Below, one piece after another: positions 30,813 to 49,992 of a DNA stretch of 59,358 nucleotides. The stretch spans positions 1 through 59,358 of the IMG/VR virus record IMGVR_UViG_3300032116_000214. The stretch is one strand, 5' to 3'. The DNA is from a virus. The number at the start of each line of letters is the position of its first letter. Position 1 is the first letter of the stretch. Under the pieces are notes generated by a model. It was not told the origin of the DNA. It worked only from the letters and a program-made list of their open reading frames with translations, and did not search any database. Position numbers and translations under genes: made by a program.

Positions 30813-31338
30813 AGTAGAACTAATAGAGCATCTTGATGAAGTTAACAAGGTTGTAACTGAATATTTAAAGGGTCAAGATCCAACTAAGATTTCCAAAGAC
30901 CTAGATATGCCAAGAACTCGTGTTGTTGCATTAATTAATGAGTGGAAAGTTATGGCTTCTGCCAATGATGCTATTCGTGCTCGTGCTAAAGAGGCTCTTG
31001 CTGGAGCAGACACACATTACAGCAAACTTATAACAAAGGCTTATGAGGTTATTGATGAATCAAGTTTGACTAATAATCTTAGTGCAAAAACTCAGGCTAT
31101 TAAACTTGTTATGGATATTGAAAAGTCTAGAATTGAAATGCTTCAAAAGGCTGGTCTACTTGAGAACAAAGAACTTGCAGAAGAAATGGTTGAGATTGAA
31201 AGAAAACAAGAAGTCCTTATTGGAATTCTTAGAGATGTTGCTTCAGAGCATCCAGAAATACGTGACTTAATTATGCATAGACTTTCTTCTATTGCAAAAG
31301 AAGGCGAAGTGATTACAATTGTCCACGATGTTCAATGA
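30802..31338 (+). CDS. terminase small subunit candidate
   Basis: 178 residues, TTG start at 30802 behind GAGGG. N-terminal helix-turn-helix (YLKGQDPTKISKDLDMPRTR) followed by long helices (QAIKLVMDIEKSRIEMLQKA, EIERKQEVLIGILRDVASEH) as in phage small terminases, which bind the packaging site and form a ring. It ends inside the start of the large terminase gene, the usual arrangement. Confidence 0.75.
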   Translation: MSSEVELIEHLDEVNKVVTEYLKGQDPTKISKDLDMPRTRVVALINEWKVMASANDAIRARAKEALAGADTHYSKLITKAYEVIDESSLTNNLSAKTQAIKLVMDIEKSRIEMLQKAGLLENKELAEEMVEIERKQEVLIGILRDVASEHPEIRDLIMHRLSSIAKEGEVITIVHDVQ

Positions 31339-33103
31339 GTTTCTTGATGTTTTAAAAGAAAACCATTTTATTGAAACTCCAGTAGATGTAAAAACCTTTG
31401 TTCAGTCTCCTGAATATCTTGGTCAACCACTGCTTTCTGATATTCAATATGAAATAGTAGAGGCAATGAGTCAAATTTATCGCAAAGAAGACCTGATAGA
31501 ACTTATGGGTCAAGCCGAAGGCTTAAATCATTTTAATAAATATACAAAAAATGAATTGATTCTCCAACTTGGCAAGGGTAGTGGCAAAGATTTTATTTCA
31601 ACCGTGGCATGTGCATATGTAGTATATAAACTACTTTGCCTAAAGGATCCAGCAACATACTTTGGCAAGCCTGCAGGAGACGCAATTGATATTATTAACG
31701 TTGCTGTTAACGCACAACAGGCTAAGAACGTTTTCTTTAAAGGCTTTAAAACAAAGATTGAAAAATCTCCGTGGTTTGCGGGTAAGTATAACGCTAAGGC
31801 TGACTCAATTGAATTCGATAAGGCAATTACAGTTTATTCTGGTCATTCAGAAAGAGAATCTCATGAGGGTTTAAACCTTCTTATGGCAGTACTTGATGAG
31901 ATTTCTGGTTTTGCTACAGAAGTAGGTACTGGTAACGAACAAGGAAAAACTGCTGATAACATCTATAAAGCCTTCCGTGGTACCGTAGATTCTCGTTTCC
32001 CTGATCTTGGTAAAGTTGTTTTGCTTTCATTCCCCAGATATCAAGGTGACTTTATTTCCCAACGATATGAAGCAGTTATTGCTGATAAAGAAACTATTGA
32101 GCGTAGACATACGTTTATCATGAACGAAGACTTGCCACACGATGATCCAGGAAACCAGTTTGAAATTTCGTGGGATGAAGATACAATACTTTCATATAAA
32201 ATACCAAGAGTCTATGCATTTAAAAGACCAACTTGGGAAGTTAATCCTACTCGTAAAATAGAAGATTTTAAATTAGCCTTTTACACAGACCTAGGAGATG
32301 CAATGATGCGCTTTGCTTGTATGCCAACATATGCATCAGATGCTTTCTTTAAGCAAAAAGATAAACTAGAAAAATGTATGAACACAAGAAATCCACTAGA
32401 TCAGTTCAGAAGGTTTGATGAAACCTTTAAGCCAGATGAGAATAAGGTTTATTATATACATGCTGACCTTGCACAAAAGCATGACAAGTGTGCAGTTGCT
32501 ATTGCTCACGTAGATAAGTGGGTAAACATTCAGGTCATTAAAGATTATGAACAGGTAGCGCCAATTGTTGTAGTGGATGCAGTAGCCTGGTGGGAACCAA
32601 GAGCAGAAGGTCCAGTTAACCTATCAGAAGTCAAGCAGTGGATTATGAACTTACGTAGACAAGGATTTAATCTTGGCATGGTTTCTTTTGACCGATGGCA
32701 GTCATTTGATATTCAAAATGAGTTGCAAGCAGTAGGAATTAGGACTGAAACTGTTTCTGTTGCAAAGAAACACTATGAGGATTTGGCTATGATGATTTAT
32801 GAGGAGCGTGTTTCAATTCCCATGATTCCAATCTTGCTTGAAGAAATGTCAGAGTTAAAGATTATGAAGGGCAACCGTGTTGATCACCCCCGTAAAAAAT
32901 CTAAAGACTTGGCAGATGCTGTATGTGGAGCCGTATTTGGGGCTATCTCTCACACAGCAAAGACTAATAATACAGAAATAGATGTCCATACCTGGAGTTC
33001 TGCAACACGACTTGCACAAAAACAAAGGGATATGGTAGAATTGGATAATCGAGAAATGCCTAACGATGTTAAGGATTTCCTCGATAAATTCAACTTAATA
33101 TAA
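31319..33103 (+). CDS. terminase large subunit
   Basis: 594 residues (TTG 31319; ATG 31328 three codons later is an alternative). Packaging motor: ATPase domain with Walker A LGKGSGKD (84-91) and Walker B LLMAVLDEIS, coupling motif near LLSFPRYQGDF; C-terminal RNase-H-fold nuclease with acidic residues in YYIHADLAQKHD, VSFDRWQSFD and DLADAVCG. Sited after the recombination genes rather than beside portal/capsid genes, which must lie outside the window. Confidence 0.94.
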   Translation: MSTMFNEFLDVLKENHFIETPVDVKTFVQSPEYLGQPLLSDIQYEIVEAMSQIYRKEDLIELMGQAEGLNHFNKYTKNELILQLGKGSGKDFISTVACAYVVYKLLCLKDPATYFGKPAGDAIDIINVAVNAQQAKNVFFKGFKTKIEKSPWFAGKYNAKADSIEFDKAITVYSGHSERESHEGLNLLMAVLDEISGFATEVGTGNEQGKTADNIYKAFRGTVDSRFPDLGKVVLLSFPRYQGDFISQRYEAVIADKETIERRHTFIMNEDLPHDDPGNQFEISWDEDTILSYKIPRVYAFKRPTWEVNPTRKIEDFKLAFYTDLGDAMMRFACMPTYASDAFFKQKDKLEKCMNTRNPLDQFRRFDETFKPDENKVYYIHADLAQKHDKCAVAIAHVDKWVNIQVIKDYEQVAPIVVVDAVAWWEPRAEGPVNLSEVKQWIMNLRRQGFNLGMVSFDRWQSFDIQNELQAVGIRTETVSVAKKHYEDLAMMIYEERVSIPMIPILLEEMSELKIMKGNRVDHPRKKSKDLADAVCGAVFGAISHTAKTNNTEIDVHTWSSATRLAQKQRDMVELDNREMPNDVKDFLDKFNLI

Positions 33104-33123: not shown

Positions 33124-34821
33124 ATGAATTCATTTAAGAAAATCGCTCTAGGACTCGCTGCAGCAATGTCCTTTGGCGTACTATCGGCACTTCCGACAAG
33201 TGCTGCTGTGATTGCACCTACACTAACGATTGATTCTGCTACAGACTCAATTCTAGTTGGTGAAACTGCAACAGCAGTAGTTACACTGTCATTTATTTCA
33301 GAAACAACAGCAGATACAGCAACCGTGCTTTCTGCTATGTTTGCACAGCCATCAACGGCTAACAAGTCAGCAACAATTACATTGCTAGAAACATCAACAG
33401 CAACTGTAGCAATTGCTAACACTAATCTTTCAGCAGATGTTAACTCAACTGTTAATACTCCAGGATATGTAACTGCAAAGTTTACAGTATCTTTGGTTGC
33501 TCCATCAGTTGCAGGTACATACGAGGCAAGAATTATTACAACTCGCCCATCAACTGGTCCATCAGTTGCATGGACAGTAACAGTAGGGGCTGGAGATACA
33601 GTTCCATCTGCTTCAACAACAACTTCAATTCTTAATAGAGGTGAAGTAATTACTGCTACAGCAGATGATTCAGTATTTGCGCCAAAGGCAGCAGCAACAG
33701 ATGCAGCAGCAGTTATTGTTATTGCACAAAAGAATGCAGCAGGCAGAGCAACTTCAGAGTCGCTTCTTGCTACAGTAACTGGATCAGGAGCAATTGGATA
33801 TGGCACAAATGCCACAACAATGTCACTTCTTGGTCGTTCAGTTGTTATCCCTTCAGGAAATTACATTGGCGTATTTGCTGACGGTACTGCAGGAGTTGGA
33901 ACAATTACAATTACAACACTTACAGGTACAGTACTTGCAACAGAGAAGGTAACATTCTATGGAGACATTGCTACAATCGAAGCAACTCCAGTCAAGTCTG
34001 TTATTGCACTTGGTGCAAACACAACTACAGTTAAGGCAGTAGCAAAGGATGCTTCTGGCGTAACAGTTGGAGCAGGAACACTTAATGCTTTCTCAAGCAA
34101 TATTGCAACAGTATCTGATTCAGGTACAGCAGCAACAATTGTTAATGGTGAGGCAGTATTTACTCTTACTGGTGTTAAGGCTGGAGATGTTGCAGTTACA
34201 ATTAAGTCTGGAACAATCTCTTCTAACTCAGTTGCAGTACGTGTAGAGTCACCAGCAGCAACTGTAAAGTTGGCTTTTGACAAGGACACATATCTTCCAG
34301 GAGAAGCAGCAACTATTAGAGTAACAGTTCTTGATGCAGCAGGTCTTCCATTATCTGGAAAGACACACTCTGCTCTATTTGCAACAGGTGGAATTACTTC
34401 AACCTATGCATTTGGTTCAGGTTCAGATATTCTTACAGCAACATCAGTTACAACTGATACTGATACAGTTAAGTCATACAAGGTATTTATGCCATTGACA
34501 GAAAACACTGTAACAATTTCAGCAACTGGTGGAACTTCACTTCCTTTGGCTGGACAGGTAGCAGTATCTGCAACAGCGAAGGTATCAAACTCTTCTTCTA
34601 GCACAAACGCTACTCTTGCAGCATTAGTTGCACAGATTACCGCAATGCAGGGAATTTTTGATAGCCTTAAGGCAGAAATTACAACACTTAAGGCTGATAA
34701 GGCAGCAGCAGATGCTAAGGCAATTGCTGATCGTGCTGCTTTTGTAAAGCAGTATAATTCTCTTGCAACTAAATGGAACAAGAAGAATCCAAAGTCTAAG
34801 GTTGCACTTCTTAAGAAGTAA
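33124..34821 (+). CDS. exported S-layer-like Ig-domain protein
   Basis: 565 residues. Signal peptide 1-27 (MNSFKKIALGLAAAMSFGVL, cleavage near PTSA). Mature part almost all Thr/Ser/Ala/Val beta structure; Ig-like repeats visible near 290-365 (VKSVIALGANTTTVKAVAKD) and 385-412 (DTYLPGEAATIRVTVLDAAG). C-terminus is a helix plus a basic end (YNSLATKWNKKNPKSKVALL), a tail I associate with secreted proteins of small Actinobacteria. No membrane anchor or LPXTG. Lysine is nearly always AAG, unlike flanking genes, which suggests very high expression. Own ribosome site (AAGGAGAAAG) and terminator. Probably acquired from a host surface-layer protein; could coat the infected cell or the virion. Confidence 0.7.
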   Translation: MNSFKKIALGLAAAMSFGVLSALPTSAAVIAPTLTIDSATDSILVGETATAVVTLSFISETTADTATVLSAMFAQPSTANKSATITLLETSTATVAIANTNLSADVNSTVNTPGYVTAKFTVSLVAPSVAGTYEARIITTRPSTGPSVAWTVTVGAGDTVPSASTTTSILNRGEVITATADDSVFAPKAAATDAAAVIVIAQKNAAGRATSESLLATVTGSGAIGYGTNATTMSLLGRSVVIPSGNYIGVFADGTAGVGTITITTLTGTVLATEKVTFYGDIATIEATPVKSVIALGANTTTVKAVAKDASGVTVGAGTLNAFSSNIATVSDSGTAATIVNGEAVFTLTGVKAGDVAVTIKSGTISSNSVAVRVESPAATVKLAFDKDTYLPGEAATIRVTVLDAAGLPLSGKTHSALFATGGITSTYAFGSGSDILTATSVTTDTDTVKSYKVFMPLTENTVTISATGGTSLPLAGQVAVSATAKVSNSSSSTNATLAALVAQITAMQGIFDSLKAEITTLKADKAAADAKAIADRAAFVKQYNSLATKWNKKNPKSKVALLKK

Positions 34822-34834
34822 AACTTTATAAATT

Positions 34835-34867
34835 AGGGGGTTAGCCAAGTGCTAACCCTCTTTTTTA
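34835..34867 (+). terminator. rho-independent terminator after S-layer-like gene
   Basis: Stem GGGTTAGC (34838-34845) / GCTAACCC (34851-34858), extended by a few pairs on each side, loop CAAGT, then a TCTTTTTT tract. It closes the terminase/S-layer transcription unit. Confidence 0.9.
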
Positions 34868-34878
34868 TTTCAACAAAA

Positions 34879-34887
34879 TGATATAAT
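34879..34887 (+). promoter_or_regulatory. extended -10 promoter of coiled-coil protein gene
   Basis: TG-A-TATAAT at 34879-34887 right after the terminator; the GGAAAGG ribosome site and GTG start at 34913 follow. Confidence 0.6.
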
Positions 34888-34912
34888 AAGACTATCAAAC
34901 ATCGGAAAGGAT

Positions 34913-37375
34913 GTGCCCTCTATCGAAAAGATCCTACTAAAAAGTGGGGTAGTTGCTTTTTTGGTGGGTTTGTGGTTTATCTTATCTCCAATTAGCCAAG
35001 CACATGCAGATGAAACAGTAACAAACCAAGTATCTTCGTCTGATACATCAACGGCAACAATAGATTCTTCTTCAACAGTTATAGTGCATACATCTGTAGA
35101 AAGTGCTACAGCCATAATTGAGGTAGCACAGGCTACAATTACTCAGGCTGAAACTACCACGGCAGTCATAGAGACCCAAGCAACAGCCATTACAAGCCCT
35201 ACAGAGACCATTACAGCCACTATTACACAGGCAAATACTTCTATTACCCAGGCTCAGACAGTAGTAGATAGTGCTACTGTGGCTGTTAACAATGTTATTT
35301 CTACTCAGAATTCCCTGGCTCAAGCGGTAGAAACTCAGACTGCTATGGCTCAAATAGTAGCCTCAGAATCAGCAACAGTCTTATCTCTGACAGATAGTAT
35401 GACAGTTCTTAATGGACAAATAGATAGTCAAACAGCAATAGTTTTATCTGATAGTGCAACAGTAACATCAGAGCAGGCTGCCTTAACTTTAGTTGAAGAT
35501 CAGATAGCCTTACAAAATTCAGGCAATCCACAAACAACAGATCTTCCTAAAGACGATGACTGGTCATTCCAAATGACTCTGCCCTATGCCCTCAGACTTG
35601 GTGATCAAGAATATACAGATGTTTATGTTGCTACAAATGGTTTGATATCTTTTGGTACCCCACAAGGTTGGGGTGGAAATGCTCCAGCAGTTTATATTAA
35701 CTTCCGTGACTGGTGGAATGTTGATTCAGACACTTATGTTAGATATTCAACAACTATTAACACACTTTTAATTGAATGGATGGTTAGAGGGTATGGAACT
35801 CGTTCTGGGCAACTAACTAATATTATTTTTGATGCTGATGTAAATCCAATTGATGGAACATGGAAAGCAGATGTATCTTCAGTGGGTCAAGCAGGAAGCG
35901 GTCAAGTTCAAGTTAATCAAATAATTAATAATCAATTAACTGGATCTGTTATACAGCAAAATGAAGGGAGCACTCCAACAAATTTATCAGCACATATTGA
36001 TATTACTGGATATACTCCATATACACCACTTCCAGCAGATACAAATTTAGCAGAGGCACTTGCATCAGCACAGGCAGATCTTTCTGCAGCACAATCAGTT
36101 TTGTCTGCATCACAATCAGTTCTGAATAGTTTGCTTGCAAATGAAGATGCTTTACAGTCTGAAATAGATGCAGCACAGGCTAATCTATCAGCAGCCCAAG
36201 CAGATCTTGCAGAAGCAACACAAGAAGTTGCTTACTGGGAAAATGAATTAGACAATGCAGAAGCAGAATTAAATGCTGCAGTATCTTCAATTGAGCCAGT
36301 AGTTGAAGCAATGAAAGCAGCAGTTGTTATTGCACAAACAATAGTTAATAATACTCTTGCAGAAGAAGAGGCAGCACGGCAGGCTGCAGCAGCAGCGGAG
36401 GCTGCTAGACAAGCAGCAATAGCAGAAGCAAATGCAAGAGCAGCAGAAGCAGCAGCAGCCCGTGCACAAGCAGAAGCAGCAGCAGCACAAGCAGCAGCAG
36501 CAAAGGCTGAGGCAGATCGTATAGCAGCAGAAGAGGCTGCAGCAAAGGCTCAAGCAGATGCTGAAAAGGCAGAAGCAGATAGGATTGCTGCAGAAGAAGC
36601 AGCACAAAAGGCAGAACAAGAAGCACAGGCTCAGGCAGAAGCAGAAGCAAAAGCAGAGGCTGAAAGATTAGAGGCTGAAGCAGAAGCAGCAAGACAGGCT
36701 GAAGAAGATGCTAAGGCTGAGGCTGCAGCCAAGGAAGCGGAGGCAGAGGCTGCCAGACAAGCAGAGGAAGATGCTAAAGCAGAGGCAGAAGCAAAAGAAA
36801 AGGAATTAGAAGAAGCAAAGGCTGAAGAAGAAGAGGCTCAAGCAAAAGAAGAAGAATTAAATGAGATTCTTGAAGATGCTAAAGACGGTAAAGAATTAAC
36901 TGAAGAACAAAAAGAAGTTCTTGTAGAGGCTTTGCTTGAAGACCTTAAGCCTGGAGAATCAGTTTCAGCAGCAGAAATTAAAGCATCTGGAGTTTCATAT
37001 GCAGACCTTCCACCATCAACACCAGTTGAACTTCGCACTGATGAAAATGGAAATGCTCTTGTAATTACCGCTGCAGTAGCAGCAAATATTGAATTAGTTC
37101 AAGATCCAGGAGCGTTGCTTACAGCCGCTCTAACAGATCCTGGAGCAGCATTAGCAGCACTTGGAAGCATCGGCGCTGATATGACAGAAGCAGAAAGAGA
37201 AGAAGCAACAGAAATGGTTGTGGCTACAGTTGTAGCAGCAGGTGCAGCAATTAATGCCGCAGCCGTTGCAACAGGTGGGGCAACTGGAGGAGGTACAGGT
37301 GGTGGAGGAAGTTCTGGTGGGGGCGGTGCTTCAGGTGCCAATTCACCAGGTTCAAGAGGAGGAAGAAAATGGTAA
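34913..37375 (+). CDS. exported Ala-rich coiled-coil protein with nidogen-like domain
   Basis: 820 residues, GTG start. Signal peptide about 1-31 (KSGVVAFLVGLWFILSPISQ, cleavage at AHA). Residues 32-200 are Thr/Ala/Ser-rich helices; about 210-370 a beta domain (YALRLGDQEYTDVYVATNGL, FGTPQGWGGN, LLIEWMVRGYGTRSG) resembling NIDO-type extracellular domains; about 376-656 a long Ala/Glu coiled coil with AEAEA and AADRIAAEE-like repeats; a globular segment at 656-785 (LLEDLKPGESVSAAEIKASG); Gly-rich tail ending GSRGGRKW. No sorting signal. A fibre-like surface or secreted protein; could be a host decoy, an adhesin or a structural fibril. Overlaps the next small membrane gene. Confidence 0.65.
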   Translation: MPSIEKILLKSGVVAFLVGLWFILSPISQAHADETVTNQVSSSDTSTATIDSSSTVIVHTSVESATAIIEVAQATITQAETTTAVIETQATAITSPTETITATITQANTSITQAQTVVDSATVAVNNVISTQNSLAQAVETQTAMAQIVASESATVLSLTDSMTVLNGQIDSQTAIVLSDSATVTSEQAALTLVEDQIALQNSGNPQTTDLPKDDDWSFQMTLPYALRLGDQEYTDVYVATNGLISFGTPQGWGGNAPAVYINFRDWWNVDSDTYVRYSTTINTLLIEWMVRGYGTRSGQLTNIIFDADVNPIDGTWKADVSSVGQAGSGQVQVNQIINNQLTGSVIQQNEGSTPTNLSAHIDITGYTPYTPLPADTNLAEALASAQADLSAAQSVLSASQSVLNSLLANEDALQSEIDAAQANLSAAQADLAEATQEVAYWENELDNAEAELNAAVSSIEPVVEAMKAAVVIAQTIVNNTLAEEEAARQAAAAAEAARQAAIAEANARAAEAAAARAQAEAAAAQAAAAKAEADRIAAEEAAAKAQADAEKAEADRIAAEEAAQKAEQEAQAQAEAEAKAEAERLEAEAEAARQAEEDAKAEAAAKEAEAEAARQAEEDAKAEAEAKEKELEEAKAEEEEAQAKEEELNEILEDAKDGKELTEEQKEVLVEALLEDLKPGESVSAAEIKASGVSYADLPPSTPVELRTDENGNALVITAAVAANIELVQDPGALLTAALTDPGAALAALGSIGADMTEAEREEATEMVVATVVAAGAAINAAAVATGGATGGGTGGGGSSGGGGASGANSPGSRGGRKW

Positions 37376-37548
37376 GAATACTAAAAAATATAATCAAAGA
37401 TCTAATTGATCAGGCATGGACTCTTCTTGGAATGTTTATTGCCTGGGTTGTGTTAGATGGTAGTGCAAAAACCATAGTTGGCTATGGAATTATAGCAACT
37501 ACCGCACTTTGGATATTAACTAGTCCTGCTAGAAATAAAGAAGAGTAG
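37369..37548 (+). CDS. 59-residue two-span membrane protein
   Basis: ATG overlaps the previous stop. Two hydrophobic segments (WTLLGMFIAWVVLDG, IVGYGIIATTALWIL) separated by a short SAKT loop, with a basic N-terminus. I recall the DQAW..GSAKTIVGY pattern from small membrane proteins in aquatic phage genomes next to a lipoprotein, as here. A holin-like or membrane-remodelling role is possible but unproven. Confidence 0.65.
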   Translation: MVRILKNIIKDLIDQAWTLLGMFIAWVVLDGSAKTIVGYGIIATTALWILTSPARNKEE

Positions 37549-37554
37549 TATAAT
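37549..37554 (+). promoter_or_regulatory. -10 box of leaderless lipoprotein gene
   Basis: TATAAT at 37549-37554, seven bases before the ATG at 37562; no Shine-Dalgarno of normal spacing, so the transcript probably begins at or next to the start codon. Confidence 0.5.
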
Positions 37555-37561
37555 ACAGACT

Positions 37562-37771
37562 ATGAAGAAAATGTTAGCACTGCTATCAATCATAGCCTTA
37601 TCTATGTCTTTAACTTCTTGCGGAATGTTAGAAAATAGATATCGTTATGAGTGCCATGACCCTGCTAACTGGTATAATAAAGAGTGTAATCCACCAATCT
37701 GCCAAGCAGATGGGTTGTGCACTAAAGACATACTTGGTTTTGATCCTACGGAGGGTAGCGTAAATGAGTAA
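37562..37771 (+). CDS. small lipoprotein
   Basis: 69 residues. Lipoprotein signal MKKMLALLSIIALSMSLTSC with a lipobox-like LTSC (Cys20 lipidated). Mature part has a Tyr/Cys pattern YRYECHDPANWYNKECNPP then CQADGLC, six cysteines probably in disulfides outside the membrane. Apparently leaderless. It overlaps the next membrane protein by 8 bases. In Gram-negative phages a lipoprotein beside a small membrane protein could be a spanin pair, but a Gram-positive-type host has no outer membrane, so another surface role is likely. Confidence 0.75.
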   Translation: MKKMLALLSIIALSMSLTSCGMLENRYRYECHDPANWYNKECNPPICQADGLCTKDILGFDPTEGSVNE

Positions 37772-38120
37772 AAAAAGATATACATCAGATGAACTAGATG
37801 CAAGATTAAAGTTTTTCCTTGGCATGACATTAGGAACAATTCTATTGTTTACAACTATGGGTATTTTGTATGCCCTGGTTTTTGTTACACAACCAATAGG
37901 TGAACAATCAGAAAATGATAAAATGTTTTTCAATGTTCTATCATCTGTAGCAACATTTATTACTGGCACGCTTGCTGGTATCTTGATTGGTAAAAATGGT
38001 GGGGGTTCAGATAGTTCACAAACTTCTCAGCCATATGAGTCACAGGCTATTCAAACATCTGAGCCTACAGTTAGCCAGGTAGCAGATGATATTGATGATC
38101 TTGACGACTTTATTGAATAA
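37764..38120 (+). CDS. two-span membrane protein with acidic tail
   Basis: 118 residues. Basic N-terminus (MSKKRYTSDELDARLKFF), two hydrophobic segments (GTILLFTTMGILYALVFV; VLSSVATFITGTLAGILIG) and a soluble Ser/Gln/Asp-rich tail ending DDIDDLDDFIE. I recall the YALVFVTQP ... GTLAGILIGKNG pattern from membrane proteins next to such lipoproteins in aquatic phages. Holin-like topology but no proof; translationally coupled to the lipoprotein. Confidence 0.7.
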   Translation: MSKKRYTSDELDARLKFFLGMTLGTILLFTTMGILYALVFVTQPIGEQSENDKMFFNVLSSVATFITGTLAGILIGKNGGGSDSSQTSQPYESQAIQTSEPTVSQVADDIDDLDDFIE

Positions 38121-38132
38121 ATAACACCTTGC

Positions 38133-38162
38133 TTGACACTATTTAAGGGTAGATGGTATACT
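38133..38162 (+). promoter_or_regulatory. strong sigma70-type promoter of Ntn-hydrolase gene
   Basis: Perfect TTGACA (38133-38138), 18-bp spacer, TATACT (38157-38162) with TG one base upstream of the -10. Leader of about 23 nt with a GAGGGG ribosome site before the ATG at 38192. Confidence 0.85.
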
Positions 38163-38191
38163 TAAATATACGTATCTAGAGGGGTTTTTGC

Positions 38192-38716
38192 ATGACTTGC
38201 ATTGCTGTAGTAAAACATGACGATAAAATTTACATGGCTGGTGACCGTGGTGCGTCAGATGATGGAACTATTCTTGCTCTAGATGCACCAAAAGTTTGGA
38301 AAATTGGTCCATATTTAATTGGATATGCGGGGGCAATGGATGGAGAAAGAATTCGTTATAACTTTAAGCCAACTGCACCAAACATTAAAGATACAGATAA
38401 GTTTATGCAAACAAGATTTGTTAAAGAATTAAAAGAATTTTATAATGAGTTTTGGGTAGATACATCAAAAGATGGAGATCTTGGTTTGATTATTGCAGTT
38501 CGTGGTGAAATATATGAACACAGTTCTGCGGATATGTCTTTATCTAAATATACACTTCCATATCTTGCAATGGGTTCAGGTGCTGAATATGCTTATGGCG
38601 TTCTATATGCAACTGATAAACAAAAAAATGCAAGAAATCGTGTAGTCTCTGCTGTATCAGCAGCAATTAAGTTTAGTCCATCTTGCATGGGTCCAGTTGA
38701 CGTAGTAAGCATTTAA
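38192..38716 (+). CDS. proteasome beta / HslV-like Ntn hydrolase
   Basis: 174 residues, close to HslV (about 175). After removal of Met1 the protein starts TCIAVVKHDDKIYMAGDRGA: Thr1 is the Ntn nucleophile, Asp17 lies in AGDRGAS and Lys33 in APKVWKIG, the proteasome/HslV triad at canonical positions. Further conserved pattern IGYAGAMDGERI. No propeptide, as in HslV. No HslU or other AAA+ ATPase gene is nearby, so it would use a host ATPase or act alone. Strong dedicated promoter. Could degrade host proteins or modulate the actinobacterial proteasome. Confidence 0.8.
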   Translation: MTCIAVVKHDDKIYMAGDRGASDDGTILALDAPKVWKIGPYLIGYAGAMDGERIRYNFKPTAPNIKDTDKFMQTRFVKELKEFYNEFWVDTSKDGDLGLIIAVRGEIYEHSSADMSLSKYTLPYLAMGSGAEYAYGVLYATDKQKNARNRVVSAVSAAIKFSPSCMGPVDVVSI

Positions 38717-38725
38717 GGGTATACT
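38697..38725 (+). promoter_or_regulatory. promoter of leaderless gene at 38732
   Basis: TTGACG (38697-38702), 17-bp spacer, TATACT (38720-38725), then exactly 6 bases and ATG. The -35 lies inside the 3' end of the preceding gene. Transcription would start on the A of ATG. Confidence 0.75.
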
Positions 38726-38731
38726 TATAAT

Positions 38732-38923
38732 ATGCATGAAGAAGATAGCGTAGAAGACGCAGAGTTTGGCATTTGGTTAACAAATGGAATTGAACGGGGA
38801 TGGGTAACAGAACCGTATTGCAATACCCATGATGGTGGATATCAGTACATGGGTGAAGATGAAATGCAAGAATGGGAAGACGGTGGCGACCCATGTTGTC
38901 ATGTAGTCCGTCTAATGATCTAA
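38732..38923 (+). CDS. small acidic Cys/His protein, leaderless
   Basis: 63 residues: GWVTEPYCNTHDGGYQYMGE then EWEDGGDPCCHVVRL. This C.THDG ... EWEDGGDPC pattern I associate with small proteins of actinophages and aquatic viruses; no function known. Two Cys clusters with nearby His/Asp may bind a metal. The only initiation signal is the -10 box 6 bases upstream, so translation is apparently leaderless. Confidence 0.75.
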   Translation: MHEEDSVEDAEFGIWLTNGIERGWVTEPYCNTHDGGYQYMGEDEMQEWEDGGDPCCHVVRLMI

Positions 38924-38931
38924 GGAGAAAA

Positions 38932-39813
38932 ATGAAAAAAATAGCAGTGGGGTTAATTGCAGTAGTAAGTTTAGTGGTTTTACAACCAACATATGCTCAA
39001 GATAAAAAGTCAATCGTTATTATTGACACAGCAGTAGACACATCTCTACCAGCATTGCAAGGTAAGATTATCCATGAAGTTTGCTTAATGGAAGAACTTC
39101 GTTGTCCAAACAAGAAGTCTTTTATGGAAGGTCCAGGATCTGCAACGCTTCCAGCAAATCAGATTTATTCTGGGGGATTTGCACATGGAACACAAATGTC
39201 TTTGGTTGCTACAAAAACCAATCCAAACATTGACATTGTATTTATTCGAATTTTTCCTATGGATAAAAATGGAAATGTTGCTACATCTGCTGCAAATGCA
39301 AACAGCACAGTAAAGCAGGCTCTTGATTGGGTAATTAAAAACAAGACAAAGTTTAATGTAGTTGCAGTTTCTGTTTCGCTTGGTCAAAAACCAACAAAGA
39401 CTGGAACAAATTATTGCTCTATGAATAGATTCGACTCTGGACTAAAATCTTCTATTGAGTCTTTAAAGGCTTTAGGTGTTGCATCAGTTTTTGCAACTGG
39501 TAATGAAAGAGATAAAACTCGTATTAACTATCCAGCATGCTTAACAGAAGCAGTGGCAGTTGCATCTATTGGTCCTAGAGGAAATACAGAAGCATACAAT
39601 AATGATTCTGCAGAAACTGATTTTTATGCTCTTGGCAGACATGAATTTGCTACAGAAAATGTATCAGGAACTTCTGCTGCAACCGCAGCCTTTGCAGCAT
39701 ATTGGGCAAAATCTTATGCTGGAAACTATCAAATGACTTATGATTATCTAAAGTCTATTGCTACAACATCAGACACAAACAAAAACAATACAGTTGTTGA
39801 TGTTTTAAAGTAA
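38932..39813 (+). CDS. exported subtilisin-like serine protease (S8)
   Basis: 293 residues from ATG 38932 (ribosome site AAGGAGAAA). Signal peptide about 1-22 (KKIAVGLIAVVSLVVLQPTY, then AQ). Catalytic triad of the subtilase fold: D32 (VIIDTAVD), H85 (GFAHGTQM), S248 (SGTSAATAA), with oxyanion N191 (FATGNERD). The Asp motif follows the signal peptide almost directly, so there is no room for an I9-type propeptide; it may be active on export or matured otherwise. Likely cleaves host surface proteins or processes the neighbouring exported proteins. Confidence 0.85.
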   Translation: MKKIAVGLIAVVSLVVLQPTYAQDKKSIVIIDTAVDTSLPALQGKIIHEVCLMEELRCPNKKSFMEGPGSATLPANQIYSGGFAHGTQMSLVATKTNPNIDIVFIRIFPMDKNGNVATSAANANSTVKQALDWVIKNKTKFNVVAVSVSLGQKPTKTGTNYCSMNRFDSGLKSSIESLKALGVASVFATGNERDKTRINYPACLTEAVAVASIGPRGNTEAYNNDSAETDFYALGRHEFATENVSGTSAATAAFAAYWAKSYAGNYQMTYDYLKSIATTSDTNKNNTVVDVLK

Positions 39814-39820: not shown

Positions 39821-39896
39821 TGGTCTGTAGTTCAGTTGGCAGAACAAGGCACTGTTAATGCCTGGGTCGTAGGTTCGAGTCCTACCAGACCAGCCA
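39821..39896 (+). tRNA. tRNA-Asn (GTT)
   Basis: Cloverleaf with acceptor TGGTCTG/CAGACCA, anticodon stem GGCA/TGCC around loop CTGTTAA (anticodon GTT), T-arm with GTTCGAG, discriminator G and encoded CCA (39894-39896). Confidence 0.93.
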
Positions 39897-39897
39897 A

Positions 39898-39968
39898 GCG
39901 ACTATTGCATAGTGGTAGTGCGTAACCTTGCCAAGGTTAATGTGCGAGTTCGATTCTCGCTAGTCGCT
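39898..39968 (+). tRNA. tRNA-Gly (GCC)
   Basis: Acceptor GCGACTA/TAGTCGC, anticodon stem TAACC/GGTTA around TTGCCAA (anticodon GCC), T-arm GCGAG-TTCGATT-CTCGC, discriminator T, no encoded CCA. Starts two bases after tRNA-Asn, so they form a tandem transcript. Confidence 0.92.
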
Positions 39969-39977
39969 CTAAAGATT

Positions 39978-40042: not shown

Positions 40043-40471
40043 ATGGTAACAAAACTCGCTATGGATCTATTCAATGATCCTTTTTTTATTGGCTTCAACA
40101 GAGAGTTGAATCGCCTAAACAGCGCATATAAAACAAACTCACAAACATATCCACCTTATGACATCCTAAAACTAGATGAAGATACATATAGAGTCTCACT
40201 AGCCATTGCTGGATTCTCAAAGGAAGATATTAATGTATCTGTAGATAATGGAACATTAATTATCAAGGGTGAGATTGTTGAAGTAACAGATGCTGAAGTA
40301 GTTCACAAGGGAATTGCTGCTCGTAAATTTGTACGATCATTTGCTCTTGGAGAATACATGGAAGTAACTGGGGCTGAAATGAAGGATGGTATGCTACACA
40401 TTAATGTAGATCGTATTGTTCCAGAAGACAAGAAGCCTAAAACAATTGACATCAAAGTTGCAAAAAAGTAA
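40043..40471 (+). CDS. small heat shock protein (Hsp20/alpha-crystallin)
   Basis: 142 residues. IbpA-type sHSP: N-terminal NDPFFIGFNRELNRLN, alpha-crystallin domain PPYDILKLDEDTYRVSLAIA, GFSKEDINVSVDNGTLIIKG, the A-x-x-x-R-F region IAARKFVRSFALGEYMEV, and the C-terminal part MKDGMLHINVDRIVPEDKK. ATP-independent holdase that prevents aggregation; phage copies (known from cyanophages) may protect the replisome or capsid assembly. Own promoter and structured leader. Confidence 0.92.
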   Translation: MVTKLAMDLFNDPFFIGFNRELNRLNSAYKTNSQTYPPYDILKLDEDTYRVSLAIAGFSKEDINVSVDNGTLIIKGEIVEVTDAEVVHKGIAARKFVRSFALGEYMEVTGAEMKDGMLHINVDRIVPEDKKPKTIDIKVAKK

Positions 40472-40544: not shown

Positions 40545-41336
40545 ATGGCAGCAAAAGGTAGTTTGGCAGCAATTATTGAGGTTGCTAAAGCAGAAATTGG
40601 AACTATTGAAGGTCCAAAAGATAACGAGACAAAGTATGGTAAATGGTCTGGTGCAAACTTTGCTCCATGGTGCCAGTCATTTGTCTCTTGGTGTGCATTT
40701 ACATCTGGTCTAGATCCAAAGAAGTATCCAAAGACTGCATCAACTGTTGCAGCAGCAGATTGGTTTAAGAAGAATAATCGTTGGGCAGATGCTCGTAATG
40801 ATGATCCAACACCAGGAGACTGGATTTATTTTGATTTCCCAGATGATGGTGTAAATCGTATTTCACATGTTGGTCTTTGCATTAAGAACAATGGTGATGG
40901 AACAATTCAAGTTATTGAAGGAAACACATCTGGAACTGCAAAGGGTGACCAACGCAATGGCGGAATGTGTGTAGAAAAGACTCGTGCTTATGTAAAGAAT
41001 AAGAAAGGTATCCTTAACGCAGTTGTTGGTTGGGGTCGTCCAGTATACGCTGGAGAAGAAAACCTTGCATTACTTTCAAAGGGTGAATCAATAATTCCAT
41101 CAGGTTCAGTTGCTGTAAAGCCTTCTGCTCCTGCAGAAAAGAAAGAGTTTAAACCATTTAAGGTGGGCTCAAAAGGAGAAACAGTAAAAAAGGTTCAAGA
41201 ACTTCTTGGAGTCAATGCCGATGGTGATTTTGGTCCAGGAACTGAAAAAGCAGTTAAGGCTTTTCAAAAGAAATCTTCTTTGCCAGTAACAGGTGTAGTC
41301 GATCAAGCAACACTAAAGGCACTAAGAGGTAAGTAA
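40545..41336 (+). CDS. endolysin: CHAP amidase/endopeptidase with peptidoglycan-binding domain
   Basis: 263 residues. CHAP catalytic domain about 1-155: C43 (PWCQSFVSWC), H108 (RISHVGL), E125 and N127 (VIEGNTSG). C-terminal PG_binding_1 domain about 195-260 (FKVGSKGETVKKVQELLGV, DGDFGPGTEKAVKAFQ). Cuts peptidoglycan to release progeny. No signal peptide, so it needs a holin; candidates are the small membrane proteins at 46874, 47041 and 37369. Strong promoter and ribosome site. Confidence 0.92.
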   Translation: MAAKGSLAAIIEVAKAEIGTIEGPKDNETKYGKWSGANFAPWCQSFVSWCAFTSGLDPKKYPKTASTVAAADWFKKNNRWADARNDDPTPGDWIYFDFPDDGVNRISHVGLCIKNNGDGTIQVIEGNTSGTAKGDQRNGGMCVEKTRAYVKNKKGILNAVVGWGRPVYAGEENLALLSKGESIIPSGSVAVKPSAPAEKKEFKPFKVGSKGETVKKVQELLGVNADGDFGPGTEKAVKAFQKKSSLPVTGVVDQATLKALRGK

Positions 41337-41520: not shown

Positions 41521-41775
41521 ATGAGAACAATGATTACAGAAGAGATTGTTGCAAAAGAATGGGTATTAAAAGCGACAGATCGCTGTGATTCATGTGCAGC
41601 AGAAGCCCTTGTCAAGGTTACTGGTTTAACTGGAGACCTAATGTTTTGTGGTCATCACTATAACAGGATTATGGACAATAAAGAGGGTTATGCAAAGATG
41701 ATGTCTTTTATGCTTACAATTGTTGATGAGCGTGAAAAATTGGTTGAAAACAAAGCGAAAGGTAAAGACTACTAA
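41521..41775 (+). CDS. DUF7455-like actinobacterial zinc protein
   Basis: 84 residues (81 if the ATG at 41530 is used). ATDRCDSCAAEALVKVTGLT ... LMFCGHHYNR carries the RCDSC...FCGHH metal site of a protein family I know from actinobacterial genomes and their phages. Function unknown. A useful host marker. Overlaps the next gene by one base. Confidence 0.75.
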   Translation: MRTMITEEIVAKEWVLKATDRCDSCAAEALVKVTGLTGDLMFCGHHYNRIMDNKEGYAKMMSFMLTIVDEREKLVENKAKGKDY

Positions 41776-45486: not shown

Positions 45487-45716
45487 TGTATACAGATTCT
45501 ATGCGTAGAGCCTTTCATTCTATTATTCCCCCAAAAGGATTTAAAGTACAGATTATTGACAACGATGCCTTTCTTACGATAAAATTAGATGAAAAGCATT
45601 TTGTAACTATGGTTCATGATGAAAAGATCCAAGCGTTACAATATGTTGTTCAAGTTAAAAAGGCATTAGAAATGAATGGGGCAGTGGTCTTGGTCACTAG
45701 AGAGGCAATAAAATAA
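45486..45716 (+). CDS. hypothetical protein downstream of WhiB
   Basis: 76 residues, overlapping neighbours by one base on each side (TAATG both times). MYTDSMRRAFHSIIPPKGFK and VQIIDNDAFLTIKLDEKHFV, then a helix DEKIQALQYVVQVKKALEMN and a closing strand; a compact alpha/beta domain. No known family. Its strict coupling between WhiB and the glycosylase-like gene suggests a shared expression time rather than function. Confidence 0.65.
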   Translation: MYTDSMRRAFHSIIPPKGFKVQIIDNDAFLTIKLDEKHFVTMVHDEKIQALQYVVQVKKALEMNGAVVLVTREAIK

Positions 45717-46204
45717 TGCAAACATTTTTACCATATCAAAACTATGACGAGTGTGCAGAATCTCTTGATAATAAACGTTTAAATAAACAGATACTTGAGT
45801 CTTATCAAATTCTAAAGGTATTGTCTGGTCAATCACCTTCAGGGGCTTGGCGTAATCATCCAGCAGTTCTTATGTGGAAAAATGCAGAGTACTCACTAAG
45901 AACATATGCTAAAACCATGATTACAGAGGCTAAGAGCCGTGGCATAAGGACAGATAAGAACGAAGCCAATATAGACGCTCTAGAAGCCTTGTGTGGCGAT
46001 ATATGGGGTACTGAGAAGCCTTTCTGGGCTAACTCAAATGGTCCACACCTAAAGCGTATTAACATTACCCACAGAGCAAACCTATATCGTAAGGATCCAG
46101 AATATTATGCTGAGTTCTATCAGGATACTAAGAATGAGAATAATAAGCCTTGTTGTGATAAATGTTTATACTACTGGGTAACTCATGCTACCCGCTCAGT
46201 TTGA
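45716..46204 (+). CDS. pyrimidine-dimer DNA glycosylase-like protein
   Basis: 162 residues. QTFLPYQNYDECAESLDNKR, LNKQILESYQILKVL, WRNHPAVLMWKNAEYSLRTY and RINITHRANLYRKDPEYYAE follow the pattern of the pyrimidine-dimer glycosylase family related to T4 endonuclease V (N-terminal catalytic residue after Met; 'LDNKRLxKQ...E..Q', 'NHP'). It would excise UV photoproducts, useful in surface waters. A C-terminal CxxC (CCDKCLYYW) is an extra feature. Confidence 0.75.
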   Translation: MQTFLPYQNYDECAESLDNKRLNKQILESYQILKVLSGQSPSGAWRNHPAVLMWKNAEYSLRTYAKTMITEAKSRGIRTDKNEANIDALEALCGDIWGTEKPFWANSNGPHLKRINITHRANLYRKDPEYYAEFYQDTKNENNKPCCDKCLYYWVTHATRSV

Positions 46205-47355: not shown

Positions 47356-48393
47356 TTACTCATTTATAATATCAAGATATTTTTGTTTTAATTTATCAAC
47401 AGAAAAGTTATCTAAACCTATTTGAACCGCAGTTTCTTTTATTTCTTTTTTACTGTCATTGCCAATATACTTATCAATAATCTTGGCAAGTCTTTCTGGA
47501 TTAACATTATAAACATCAACCATAGATTTAGTTCTGAATGTATCTATTTTCTTTGAATCTGCTAACCATTTTGATGGAAGGATTGCATTGTTTGGTGATA
47601 TGTCAGTCATAAAAACTGGCAGGGCACTCATAAGAGCCTCATTCATAGGTAAACAAAGACCAGCATAACGTCTAGGAAGCACCATAGCATCAAACCCACT
47701 ATACATGTCTTGTCTGTTATCAGGGTTTCCTATTTCAACCTTCACTCTTGGATCTTTGCAAGTATGGTTCATTGGGGTTTGAGATTTAATTACTAATTCG
47801 TAATCTTCTTTAGAATACTTAATCATTTCAAAAATACTGTCAGTACCGTTTCTATCTTTTGCAGCCTTTTTTCCAGCAATATGAAGTATTCTTCTATGGT
47901 CTTTTAAAAGGTTTGTTTCTTTTGCATCATTAAATAAACTGTGATCTGTTGGTGGAGGCAAATGCACTACTTTTGTTTTACTGCCAAATTTTTCCATAAC
48001 TATATCTAAGTTCCATATGCTTGGTGAAAGTAACACATCTGGCAATGTCCAGTCTGGGTTTACTAAGTTGCCAAATAACTCATAGTTATATTGAAGAATA
48101 GTTTTAATTCCCTGTTTTTTAGCACGATCAACTAACTCTAAATGATAAAAAGTTTCACAACTTATTACTACATCCAGTCCTTCAAGAAATTGAATTATCT
48201 CATTTGTTTTGGGCATACCCTTAACAGTTTCAATAACGTTATACCCCTTGTACCATTCAGGATGTTGTTTATTGTTATTAAAAAATTGAGAGTTAATTAA
48301 AAGTATTTTATCAGGACTAAGCATTTTAACAAGTTCCATGGTTTGATTACCAAGACCAGTGTTATCAGATCGTGCAATAATTCCTAATTTCAT
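47356..48393 (-). CDS. GT-B glycosyltransferase (family 4-like)
   Basis: 345 residues from ATG 48393 (ATGA overlap with the upstream gene). MKLGIIARSDNTGLGNQTME opens with the GT-B first strand and Gly-rich loop; the C-terminal half has RRILHIAGKKAAKDRNGTDS and the nucleotide-sugar region GFDAMVLPRRYAGLCLPMNE then ALMSALPVFMTD (the E of the GT4 'EALAcGLPVi' motif). Transfers a sugar from a nucleotide-sugar or lipid donor. Last gene of the leftward glycan operon. Confidence 0.8.
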   Translation of the reverse strand: MKLGIIARSDNTGLGNQTMELVKMLSPDKILLINSQFFNNNKQHPEWYKGYNVIETVKGMPKTNEIIQFLEGLDVVISCETFYHLELVDRAKKQGIKTILQYNYELFGNLVNPDWTLPDVLLSPSIWNLDIVMEKFGSKTKVVHLPPPTDHSLFNDAKETNLLKDHRRILHIAGKKAAKDRNGTDSIFEMIKYSKEDYELVIKSQTPMNHTCKDPRVKVEIGNPDNRQDMYSGFDAMVLPRRYAGLCLPMNEALMSALPVFMTDISPNNAILPSKWLADSKKIDTFRTKSMVDVYNVNPERLAKIIDKYIGNDSKKEIKETAVQIGLDNFSVDKLKQKYLDIINE

Positions 48394-49151
48394 TGTGTAT
48401 ATCCCCAAATATCATCGTCTGTTGTAAATTTTCTAGTACCTTCACGACCATCTAAATGATAAGATCGTTTTATGTGACCTTCTGGATGGTATATCCAAAG
48501 TTTATGGTGTTCCCATCCTTCTTGACTAAAAGTTCCGTAAGGTAAACAATCATCCTGAACTCTGCCATGAAACCTATCTTCAATAAAAGTTTTTTCGTCA
48601 GAAAAAGGTAAGATAACATCTTTATAATATCTTACAGTGCTTAAGTGAGGTCGTTGGCTCCATTGTGCAGTCTTCATAAATCCATCTTCTAAACCAAACA
48701 TTAGGTGTTTATGTGGCTCAGGAATTGATGCTTCAAAATGAAAACGAATGGTATTAGCCTTTTTATACTCTAACATATCTAAACATTTTTGCCAATCAAT
48801 TTCACAGTCTGGAGTAATCGGTGCATCACCTTCAATATAAAGCATTACTGAGGTATCTATAAGATTAATAGTTTGTTTCATCATCGTGGTTTGATGGCTA
48901 TGCTCTTTGAATATTATTGGTAAAACATTTTTCCACTCATGCAAACATTTCCATAAAACTCTATTCTTGTACTCATCATAATCTAATTTACGTGACATTC
49001 TTTCTTCACGTAACCCATCTATTTGTAAAATAATTTCATTGTCTGGAAAGTGTGATCTTATTGAAGAAATTGTTTCATCAAGAATAAATGTATTAGGATG
49101 ACTTGGTAAAACAGAAGTTACAACTACAATGGTTATATCTCTTTTATGCAT
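48390..49151 (-). CDS. GT-A-type glycosyltransferase-like protein
   Basis: 253 residues. ITIVVVTSVLPSHPNTFILD, an 'EIILQIDGL' second strand and SVMLYIEGDAPITPDCEIDW (an ExD-type metal/nucleotide loop) suggest a GT-2-like GT-A fold. The later part (VQDDCLPYGTFSQEGWEHHK) is acceptor-side sequence. Start overlaps the upstream gene by 8 bases. Sugar specificity unknown. Confidence 0.65.
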   Translation of the reverse strand: MHKRDITIVVVTSVLPSHPNTFILDETISSIRSHFPDNEIILQIDGLREERMSRKLDYDEYKNRVLWKCLHEWKNVLPIIFKEHSHQTTMMKQTINLIDTSVMLYIEGDAPITPDCEIDWQKCLDMLEYKKANTIRFHFEASIPEPHKHLMFGLEDGFMKTAQWSQRPHLSTVRYYKDVILPFSDEKTFIEDRFHGRVQDDCLPYGTFSQEGWEHHKLWIYHPEGHIKRSYHLDGREGTRKFTTDDDIWGYTQ

Positions 49152-49992
49152 TTACTTGCCTCATAATCTTAATACCTAAATCTCTTTTATATTTAATCCA
49201 CCAACAAACAGCCTCATGCATATTTTCAGGATAATTATTTAATAACTCAGGAACTATACTTTTTAACAGATGCCAGTTTTTTACAGACTTTATTGGTGTC
49301 TTTCCTTCAAAAATAAAATCATAATAATTAATAGGATTACCAAATGGATCAACAGCATCTACCACTGGCAAGCATAACATTTCTAAAGCCTCATAAAATC
49401 TAAAAGATTCTATTACAACGGCTCCAGAGGGTGATGGAGCAATCTTTGCACTAGCAAGGTTCATATAGTAGTCCTTTGGGTGATCACCTTGTGCAAAGCC
49501 TGCTGTAGGCTTAAAAAGGGCATTAGAGATGGTTTGCATGGCATCAGACAACTGCTTTCGTCTTGAATGTGTGATTTGTCCACCAAAATATACATCATAC
49601 TTTTTATTTGGATATTCAGGCACATATTTTTTTAAATGTTGTGGTACACCTAAAGGTAATTTGTTATATTTTTTGTGTTGTTTATGTGGTGTTTGAATCC
49701 ATATTTCTATGTTAGGATGATTAATCTTAGTTAAATTAAATCTAACTTCTTCATCTCCTGTAAAAAATAAAACTACTCTACCTATTTTTTGTAACTCTTT
49801 ATTAACATCTTCTTCGTGACCAAGGTTTTGAGGTCCAGGAACAACAACAAAAGCACGATCAACATCTGGTAATGAGTTTACCTTTATTTGTTCAATATTA
49901 TATTTATCAAATATTTCTTTTAATAAACCGTAATCCCATTTATCAGAAGCACAATCCTTTTCATCAAAGGAGTATAGATATGCCTTTACCAT
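49144..49992 (-). CDS. glycosyltransferase, exostosin-like
   Basis: 282 residues. PHKQHKKYNKLPLGVPQHLK, NKKYDVYFGGQITHSRRKQL and, in the C-terminal part, KIAPSPSGAVVIESFRFYEA then LEMLCLPVVDAVDPFGNP match the GT47/exostosin-type GT-B ending (the 'ESfRfyEAL..g.iPV' block). Likely adds a sugar to a surface polymer. Between the FkbM gene and the GT-A gene in one leftward operon. Confidence 0.7.
   Translation of the reverse strand: MVKAYLYSFDEKDCASDKWDYGLLKEIFDKYNIEQIKVNSLPDVDRAFVVVPGPQNLGHEEDVNKELQKIGRVVLFFTGDEEVRFNLTKINHPNIEIWIQTPHKQHKKYNKLPLGVPQHLKKYVPEYPNKKYDVYFGGQITHSRRKQLSDAMQTISNALFKPTAGFAQGDHPKDYYMNLASAKIAPSPSGAVVIESFRFYEALEMLCLPVVDAVDPFGNPINYYDFIFEGKTPIKSVKNWHLLKSIVPELLNNYPENMHEAVCWWIKYKRDLGIKIMRQVNA

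Follow-up and report, generated by a model that had tools for sequence, protein, structure and literature searches.

A head-swapping stalked protein, apparently begun at near-cognate codons, is linked to candidate lysis genes in a group of related phages

Downstream of the terminase gene of virus record IMGVR_UViG_3300032116_000214 (IMG/VR; one record, a single contig of 59,358 bases, hereafter the window) lies a block consisting of two large genes (G1 and G2), two small membrane protein genes (m1 and m2) with a lipoprotein gene (lp) between them, an Ntn hydrolase gene, a small Cys/His protein gene (c) and a subtilase gene (Table 1). The product of G2 reads as a Sec-exported protein with a predicted stalk, head and membrane anchor; the head differs between otherwise similar phages, the gene is linked to candidate lysis genes, and in many members it appears to lack a usable canonical start codon. 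We tentatively propose that G2 is a sparingly made, membrane-anchored stalked adhesin placed on the infected cell near lysis, where it perhaps masks receptors or excludes other phages. The first-pass annotation of this DNA had treated the whole block as one functional system; the comparisons reported here separate its members and leave G2 with m1 and their lysis-type neighbours as the part that stays together.

Counts refer, unless stated otherwise, to a main set of 88 distinct intervals from terminase to Ntn hydrolase, each on one locus of a related contig (L-numbers), with at most the best 80 loci taken per search; identical regions were merged before counting, related phages remain non-independent, and signal peptides were called by eye and hydropathy. 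Among viral-contig stretches matching a sequence pattern, relatives were verified for G1 in at least 501/600, for m1 in at least 591/599, for the C-terminus of G2 in at least 491/599 and for whole G2 in 48/88, with 589/596 for the Ntn hydrolase and 26/28 for the subtilase; because most such stretches encode true relatives, the block lies far beyond chance. Among 50,697 phage records no match was found for G1, G2, m1 or the holin-like protein of locus L154, and lp and m2 had two matching records each; a named record sharing lp and m2 came from Dishui Lake, its host being given as "Actinomycetia bacterium". The terminase of the window (31319-33103) is about 54% identical over its full length to those of Stanwilliamsviridae phages of Streptomyces, such as Yaboi, and as related contigs extend to 116-120 kb the window is probably a fragment.

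Two large proteins with Sec signal peptides, of 565 (G1) and 820 (G2) amino acids as listed, had been noted in the first-pass annotation; both genes are present, and each product begins with what reads as such a peptide. An AlphaFold2 model of G2 built from 15 sequences (mean predicted local distance difference test score, pLDDT, 74.5) comprises a signal helix, helices up to residue 199, a beta-rich head, helices at 376-533 and 552-654, a small conserved domain (661-749) and, at low confidence, a hydrophobic helix (Table 1), the helices between head and anchor adding up to about 38 nm (0.15 nm per residue, arithmetic on the model). A C-terminal hydrophobic segment is present in 87/88 of the G2-slot proteins, as is a net positive tail (87/88), and the C-terminal alignment of 15 relatives contains no LPXTG motif and has the basic tail there instead. 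The modelled layout is supported as that of a surface-displayed stalked protein.

The head appears to be the exchangeable part. By profile, 62 of the 88 intervals have a PA14-type head, 15 the type found in the window and 11 neither, and of 13 G2-slot proteins scanned five (L006, L022, L029, L062 and L164) matched Pfam PA14 above the cut-off. Among the open reading frames (ORFs) of 293 records the PA14 and window-type head profiles match only those in the G2 slot, complete or truncated at a contig edge, the slot being assigned from position. A second type of G2, which the first G2 profile does not recognise and which was assigned by position and not by the C-terminal profile, occupies 20/88 slots; 19 of these 20 carry PA14, and the first gene after the terminase is then shorter (368-403 residues). 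Divergence can be abrupt: L004 is 95-100% identical to the window over the terminase, G1 and the 5' end of G2 and falls to 55-90% over the stalk and head of G2, while L091, with a partial terminase at 55% identity, has a head 92% identical to that of the window. The possibility that the head was copied from a tail receptor-binding domain was rejected, no head-profile match being found in the tail genes of the window (most loci stop short of the tail genes). Elsewhere in the window, 47356-52465 holds a cluster with two glycosyltransferases (PHROG 2170 and 28745), an FkbM methyltransferase and weak, below-cut-off matches to Stealth CR2 and RXYLT1; this cluster could modify host or virion glycans, possibly in connection with the lectin-type heads of G2.

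In all 88 intervals the G2 slot holds a gene of 450 codons or more and m1 comes next, and the two genes meet at a -4 overlap in 63/88. In the same intervals, searched anywhere between terminase and Ntn hydrolase, there is a holin-like gene in 70 and an lp-m2 pair in 18, with both together in none. Adjacency was scored separately in 135 distinct m1 neighbourhoods, which partly reuse the same loci; the next gene after m1 is holin-like in 98, lp-m2 in 33, Ntn hydrolase in two, endolysin in one and none of these in one. Eight intervals have the order m1-lp-m2-endolysin-Ntn, half of them with G1 and G2 and half of the second type. L194 contains, at 8925-9380, an m1 relative in which an N-terminal extension of repeated KxPKIxIPKIKIP-like motifs precedes the usual membrane part, and L180 has an extra gene, cupin-like by eye, between the G1 and G2 slots (5739-6326).

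Among twelve loci where gene order differs the linkage mostly persists, which is the reason for regarding G2-m1 as travelling with the lysis genes. A holin-like gene lies directly 3' of G2-m1 in L062, L091, L109, L229 and L267, and lp-m2-endolysin does so in L122, L252 and L256, with L283, of the latter kind, ending at the contig edge; as exceptions, L124 and L289 have these genes nearby in another order, and L147 has no recognised G2. The terminases of L109 and L091 are 54-55% identical to that of the window, those of L229 and L267 score similarly, and in the rest the terminase is out of view. In these rearranged loci G1, the Ntn hydrolase and the subtilase are scattered while G2-m1 remains joined to the holin-like gene or lp-m2. 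The block is thus no fixed set, the subtilase, lp-m2 and the position of G1 all varying, and the subtilase and G1 are looser neighbours of G2-m1; a single functional unit is not supported, and the scattering in related phages that the first-pass annotation had named as refuting one is seen in part.

It had further been stated that the block contains no standard virion, lysis or replication gene. The earlier description of a lipoprotein between two small membrane proteins is correct (the lipobox of lp is flanked by m1 and m2), and these three genes occupy a lysis slot, beside holin-like and endolysin genes, so that the claim is doubtful as regards lysis. As to family matches, lp resembles an Rz-like spanin at 0.0087, m1 has no match below 0.8 in PHROGs and reaches Pfam CdaA_N at 0.0054, below the cut-off, and m2 matches a PHROG of no assigned function at 8e-14. 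The holin-like protein of L154 matches phrog_443 (holin) at E 0.0065 and phrog_26427 (labelled nuclease) at 2e-25, and fails to align with the annotated holin of Yaboi. The holin-like protein of L109 has one match among the phage records, in Actinomycetia phage DSL-LC01, where holin-like, lp and m2 genes stand in tandem (L292:11688-12516) and the annotation shows no large G2-like gene immediately 5' of the three. This tandem weakens a general rule that lp-m2 replaces the holin-like gene, yet keeps those genes together.

The start of G2 seems to be a near-cognate codon in most members, a conserved codon behind a Shine-Dalgarno sequence with many members lacking a usable canonical start. The ORF listed in the first-pass annotation exists and reads as exported, and its start in the window is probably ATC 34922 rather than GTG 34913. 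An in-frame GTG does stand at 34913, and several relatives have an in-frame stop at exactly that position; the near-cognate call for the window thus rests on the relatives. Among 95 distinct G2 5' regions, L252 being left out, a canonical start with a Shine-Dalgarno sequence at 4-13 nucleotides was found in 13 of 94 (12 TTG and one ATG), a near-cognate start only in 77 (57 ATT, eight ATC, eight CTG and four ATA) and neither in four; in 42/94 no in-frame ATG, GTG or TTG precedes the hydrophobic core, and a well-placed ATG occurs once (L250). As the automatic picks include some wrong ones (L171 and L357, for example), a stricter count was made over the 88 intervals: 76 have a near-cognate codon behind a Shine-Dalgarno sequence and followed by K, R, E, Q or N, seven have a canonical codon and five are unassigned. 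No in-frame ATG, GTG or TTG precedes the signal core in 49 of those 76, and some is present in the other 27. Codon periodicity begins at the near-cognate codon, the mean entropies at positions 1, 2 and 3 being 1.55, 1.55 and 1.56 upstream vs 1.26, 0.79 and 1.31 downstream (75 regions, leaving out L171 and L056, with the start-codon columns fixed by the choice of rows).

Control genes were mostly canonical at the homologous start: G1 in 64/64 (ATG or GTG), Ntn hydrolase in 122/122, lp in 28/28, nuclease in 72/72, m2 in 31/32, subtilase in 43/44, Hsp20 in 64/67 (ATG), endolysin in 97/109 and terminase in 93/97, of which 91 are TTG. The small gene c has ATG in only 24/57, a figure that may be due to an unreliable alignment start. 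In an additional set anchored on m1, m1 itself starts with ATG in 78/78, and 31 new G2 regions gave 15 TTG, 13 ATT (one of them a wrong pick), one ATC and two with neither.

Three further ideas about the start were rejected. TTG is not the mark of a distant clade only, as four of seven TTG cases (L011, L014, L018 and L194) have terminases 84-96% identical to that of the window, and TTG starts of G2 are seen both in rearranged loci and in some main-type members. Strong selection for one isoleucine codon was not found, ATT 57, ATC 8 and ATA 3 against a background of 362, 49 and 95 giving p = 0.01, a mild effect. Initiator tRNAs carry GGG/CCC pairs in the anticodon stem, and the tRNA-Met(CAT) of the window is without them, so that a phage initiator tRNA was not favoured as the cause of the odd start; this tRNA gene (52532-52606, minus strand) may encode an elongator or an AUA-reading isoleucine tRNA.

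In the mechanism that we propose, G2 would be exported through Sec as a type I membrane protein, its C-terminal hydrophobic helix and basic tail keeping it in the host membrane and its helical stalk presenting a head of glycan-binding type outside the cell. It would be expressed from its own promoter at the head of the lysis genes, overlapping m1 next; a TGnTATAAT motif lies 5' of the G2 slot in 85/88 intervals. Output would be low, as a weak codon (AUU, AUC, AUA or CUG mostly, TTG in others) begins translation, and the protein would mask or alter the receptor that phages use on infected cells and on the debris of these, giving superinfection exclusion and protecting released progeny. The exclusion of competing phages, proposed earlier for the block, is a possible role and our leading functional guess for G2 only. 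That the start drifts among AUU, AUC, AUA and CUG with proofreading by initiation factor 3 (IF3) throttling a head-swapping adhesin or switching it at lysis time, a viral surface exclusion coupled to lysis, is a bolder version that we regard as rather doubtful.

Partial parallels exist. The anchor of PrgA is an LPXTG motif. This enterococcal protein, which is described as providing surface exclusion for the conjugative plasmid pCF10, is cell-wall anchored and displays a protease-domain head on a stalk some 40 nm long (PMC10588982); G2, as predicted, would be like PrgA in being exported and in holding a head off the cell on a long stalk, and is likewise encoded by a mobile element, but its C-terminus has a hydrophobic helix with a basic tail, its head is PA14 or another beta type and its neighbours are lysis genes. 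As to weak starts, E. coli infC begins with AUU. The same codon is given for E. coli pcnB in the title of a reference; S. aureus infC and ccpN are reported to begin with AUA and cvfC1 with AUU, reporter activity in RPMI medium being near 10% of that with AUG (PMC13009471), and the GTC start of Streptomyces sigR is reported to be repressed by IF3 (PMC5472188). G2 shares with these a conserved near-cognate start behind a good Shine-Dalgarno sequence, and by analogy may be kept scarce by the same means; unlike these cellular genes, it is a phage gene with an exported product in which AUU, AUC, AUA and CUG alternate between relatives. Judging by titles and abstract openings, no phage gene with an AUU or other non-canonical start was found in the literature searched.

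Several observations weigh against this proposal and it should be considered with caution. The best match of G2 to a solved structure (VIA-align) is PrgA itself (6z9l_A; Z 14.2, 331 residues aligned, root mean square deviation, rmsd, 56 A), which is weak evidence, as a best Z of about 14 is typical of mostly helical models, long helices inflate Z and the rmsd is 56 A. The head of the window's own G2 has no Pfam PA14 match, and no match to a head turned up in the tail genes of the window, where one might be expected had masking re-used the tail's binding domain. Host genomes gave a weak negative: of 366 and 230 pattern-matching stretches, drawn from 84,980 genomes with two strict patterns each, none encodes a protein related to G1 or to the C-terminus of G2. 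With regard to the start codon, 52/94 of the 5' regions do hold an in-frame ATG, GTG or TTG before the hydrophobic core, in nine of them an ATG, which in seven (L020, L035, L036, L045, L230, L233 and L277) abuts the Shine-Dalgarno sequence and makes an AUG start possible there; the near-cognate codon in the subgroup of the window stands 10-12 nucleotides from the Shine-Dalgarno sequence, longer than usual; and the start is an ordinary TTG in 15 of the 31 additional regions.

Ranked next after superinfection exclusion and receptor masking, though unlikely, is a direct role of G2 and m1 in lysis, as spanin-like or wall-disrupting effectors in which the head would grip an outer glycan layer, the stalk would span the wall and m1 would work with the holin. 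The overlap of the two genes, their attachment to the holin-like gene or lp-m2(-endolysin) even in rearranged loci and the 85-100% identity of m1 relatives in the best 80 loci all speak for it, as do mycobacteriophages with two holin-like proteins, one of them with two transmembrane segments. One of these, F1, is described as having two small membrane-protein genes, LysF1a and LysF1b, in its lysis cassette (PMC13056207); the G2-m1 locus is likened to it by layout, not by sequence, in having two such genes among lysis genes, whereas here the first of them overlaps a large exported stalk-protein gene. However, m1 has no holin family match, head swaps between near-identical phages better fit an external specificity (though outer glycans vary too), and a very weak start suits a regulator or display protein over a bulk lysis protein.

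It is also quite unlikely that the non-AUG start is only apparent, with ribosomes entering at an ATG/GTG-TGA start-stop element and re-initiating, at the ATG abutting the Shine-Dalgarno sequence or at a codon within the hydrophobic core. Such a start-stop element does occur in the L086/L089/L096 subgroup, the 27 near-cognate members with some in-frame canonical codon would allow it, and an abutting ATG is found in 7/94 regions; but neither the AAGGAG-ATT nor the GGGGGAAAGG-ATT subgroup has these elements, the other 49 of the 76 lack any canonical codon, the near-cognate codon is where periodicity sets in, and a ribosome re-initiating at AUU would still be starting at a non-AUG codon.

G1 bears on the next alternative, that G1, G2 or both make infected cells adhere to or aggregate with cells or particles and so help progeny to reach new hosts. 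G1 is another exported protein, Ig-like and mobile independently of G2. A signal peptide with NSFKK is found on the first gene after the terminase in 73/88 intervals, and a C-terminal KWN...NP...KV tail pattern occurs in 102 ORFs (duplicates kept), of which 92 carry NSFKK and the other ten are by eye G1-type or pieces. The structure prediction called for earlier gives G2 its stalk-and-head surface layout and G1 a chain of Ig-like domains with a C-terminal helix (pLDDT 77.9), the best solved matches being the adhesin FdeC (Z 12.8, rmsd 15.6 A) and the S-layer protein SbsC (4uid_B), to which residues 280-376 align with Z 12.0 and rmsd 2.7 A over 92 residues at 30% identity. G1 thus shares an Ig-like chain with SbsC and with the Big_1 adhesins FdeC, intimin and invasin, but viral Big-domain proteins and tail proteins are among the matches to its fold too; the model fits a surface protein, of a common fold that is not specific to S-layers. 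A G1 profile against solved structures gave nothing at E up to 1, an S-layer anchoring domain such as SLH had no Pfam match in G1 up to E 1 (other anchors being possible), and no literature joining Nanopelagicales with an S-layer was found. The PA14 heads, the stalked presentation and the adhesin-like domains of G1 would suit adhesion, which we nevertheless hold to be improbable, as the Ig-like matches concern widespread folds and several have a high rmsd, and the scarcity that the start codon of G2 implies speaks against bulk adhesion.

The reading in the first-pass annotation, one surface-remodelling system in which the subtilase trims and G1 and G2 replace the surface layer, now has little probability. 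Each of G1, G2, lp and the subtilase opens with a hydrophobic segment readable as a signal peptide, and a domain of G1 resembles SbsC, yet the genes part company in rearranged loci and the subtilase lies within 4.5 kb 3' of the Ntn hydrolase in only 108/155 loci (Ntn hydrolase above 150 bits, duplicates kept). The residues noted earlier in the two enzymes were correct. In 115 Ntn sequences Thr1 and Lys33 are invariant and Asp17 is kept in 102, with Glu in 13; in the subtilase (Pfam 54.5 bits, cut-off 21.8) Asp32, His85, Ser248 and the oxyanion Asn are conserved in 75/75. The Ntn translation has no signal peptide and the enzyme would therefore act in the cytoplasm. It matches PHROG HslV at 3e-22 and barely exceeds the Pfam Proteasome cut-off (24.1 vs 22.4 bits), a separate search with that family does not list the window, and the nearest solved chain has E 0.027; relatives below 60% identity occur in 152 named phage records. 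In Thr1, Asp17 and Lys33 it is like HslV-like phage peptidases and the phage proteasome families PPH and AAH, and for these no Actinobacteria-specific phage with AAH is reported (PMC8665760). The Ntn hydrolase and subtilase are neighbours, not proven partners.

Least probable of all is that G1 and G2 belong to the virion as unusual components, with N-termini that resemble signals but have a different use: they directly follow the terminase, the G1 fold matches viral proteins, the G1 coiled coil reaches Pfam Phage_scaffold at E 0.013 (below the cut-off) and in L164 the second-type G2 matches a PHROG tape-measure family (1.5e-7) and in L194 the extended m1 matches another (2.7e-8), perhaps only through helical or repetitive composition, but the window's G1 and G2 have no Pfam family above the cut-off and no PHROG match, head and tail families included, as the first-pass annotation had it, and the conserved signal peptide and C-terminal anchor and the place beside lysis genes argue otherwise.

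Table 1. Positions of the block and flanking features in the window
Feature	Position	Strand	Remarks
G1, exported Ig-like protein, 565 amino acids	33124..34821	+	Signal peptide ~1-27, beta domains ~29-487, C-terminal helix 493-554, tail KWNKKNPKSKVALLKK
Intrinsic terminator after G1	34835..34861	+	11-pair stem and T-run
Extended -10 promoter of G2, TGATATAAT	34879..34887	+	Read in sequence
Shine-Dalgarno of G2, GAAAGGA	34905..34911	+	11 nucleotides (from GAAAGG) before ATC; rather long spacing
Probable start codon of G2, ATC	34922..34924	+	Homologous to ATT/ATA/CTG of relatives
G2, exported stalked protein (predicted), 817 amino acids from ATC	34922..37375	+	820 amino acids in original ORF listing; relatives found
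G2 beta-rich head, residues 204-359, exchangeable	35531..35998	+	Model and profiles; PA14-type in most relatives
G2 C-terminal hydrophobic helix, residues 756-785	37187..37276	+	Low model confidence; then Gly/Ser linker and basic tail SPGSRGGRKW
m1, 59 amino acids, two hydrophobic stretches	37369..37548	+	ATG overlaps G2 stop (ATGGTAA)
lp, 69-amino-acid lipoprotein, lipobox LTSC, in holin-like slot	37562..37771	+	N-terminal hydrophobic segment
m2, 118 amino acids, two hydrophobic stretches, paired with lp	37764..38120	+	Directly 5' of endolysin in some relatives
Sigma-70-type promoter-like site before Ntn hydrolase, TTGACA-18-TATACT	38133..38162	+	11/12 matches, TG before -10
N, phage proteasome/HslV-like Ntn peptidase (predicted)	38192..38716	+	Profiles, catalytic residues
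c, small acidic Cys/His protein	38732..38923	+	In 155/155 Ntn loci with 4.5 kb downstream (Ntn >150 bits)
S, exported S8 subtilase (predicted), not universal	38932..39813	+	Catalytic set intact
Hsp20-type chaperone	40043..40471	+	3' of block; family match
Endolysin, CHAP and peptidoglycan-binding domain	40545..41336	+	3' of block; family match

The separate promoters and terminators noted earlier can be recognised in the terminator of G1, the extended -10 of G2 and the promoter-like site of the Ntn hydrolase, and the small Cys/His protein is present as described. Genes for tRNA-Asn and tRNA-Gly (39821-39969) lie between the subtilase and Hsp20, followed further downstream by a DUF7455 protein (41521-41775; Pfam 1.1e-14) and a pyrimidine dimer DNA glycosylase (45716-46204; Pfam 2.3e-19). 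Genes 5' of the terminase include those for the tape measure (3431-11098) and a minor tail protein (11741-16051), a DnaB helicase, a primase, a DNA polymerase and a UvsX-like recombinase.

If the proposal is true, cells infected by these aquatic phages would bear a phage-encoded stalked adhesin near lysis, a route to the control of adsorption in dense mixed communities, and G2 would be a phage case of conserved AUU, AUC, AUA and CUG starts across a large gene family. Gene callers restricted to ATG, GTG and TTG would then misplace the start of G2, by nine bases in the window and by at least part of the signal peptide in relatives without an upstream canonical codon, and because of this restriction other exported proteins with near-cognate starts may be overlooked. 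Lastly, a region described as without lysis genes becomes a defined candidate lysis module.

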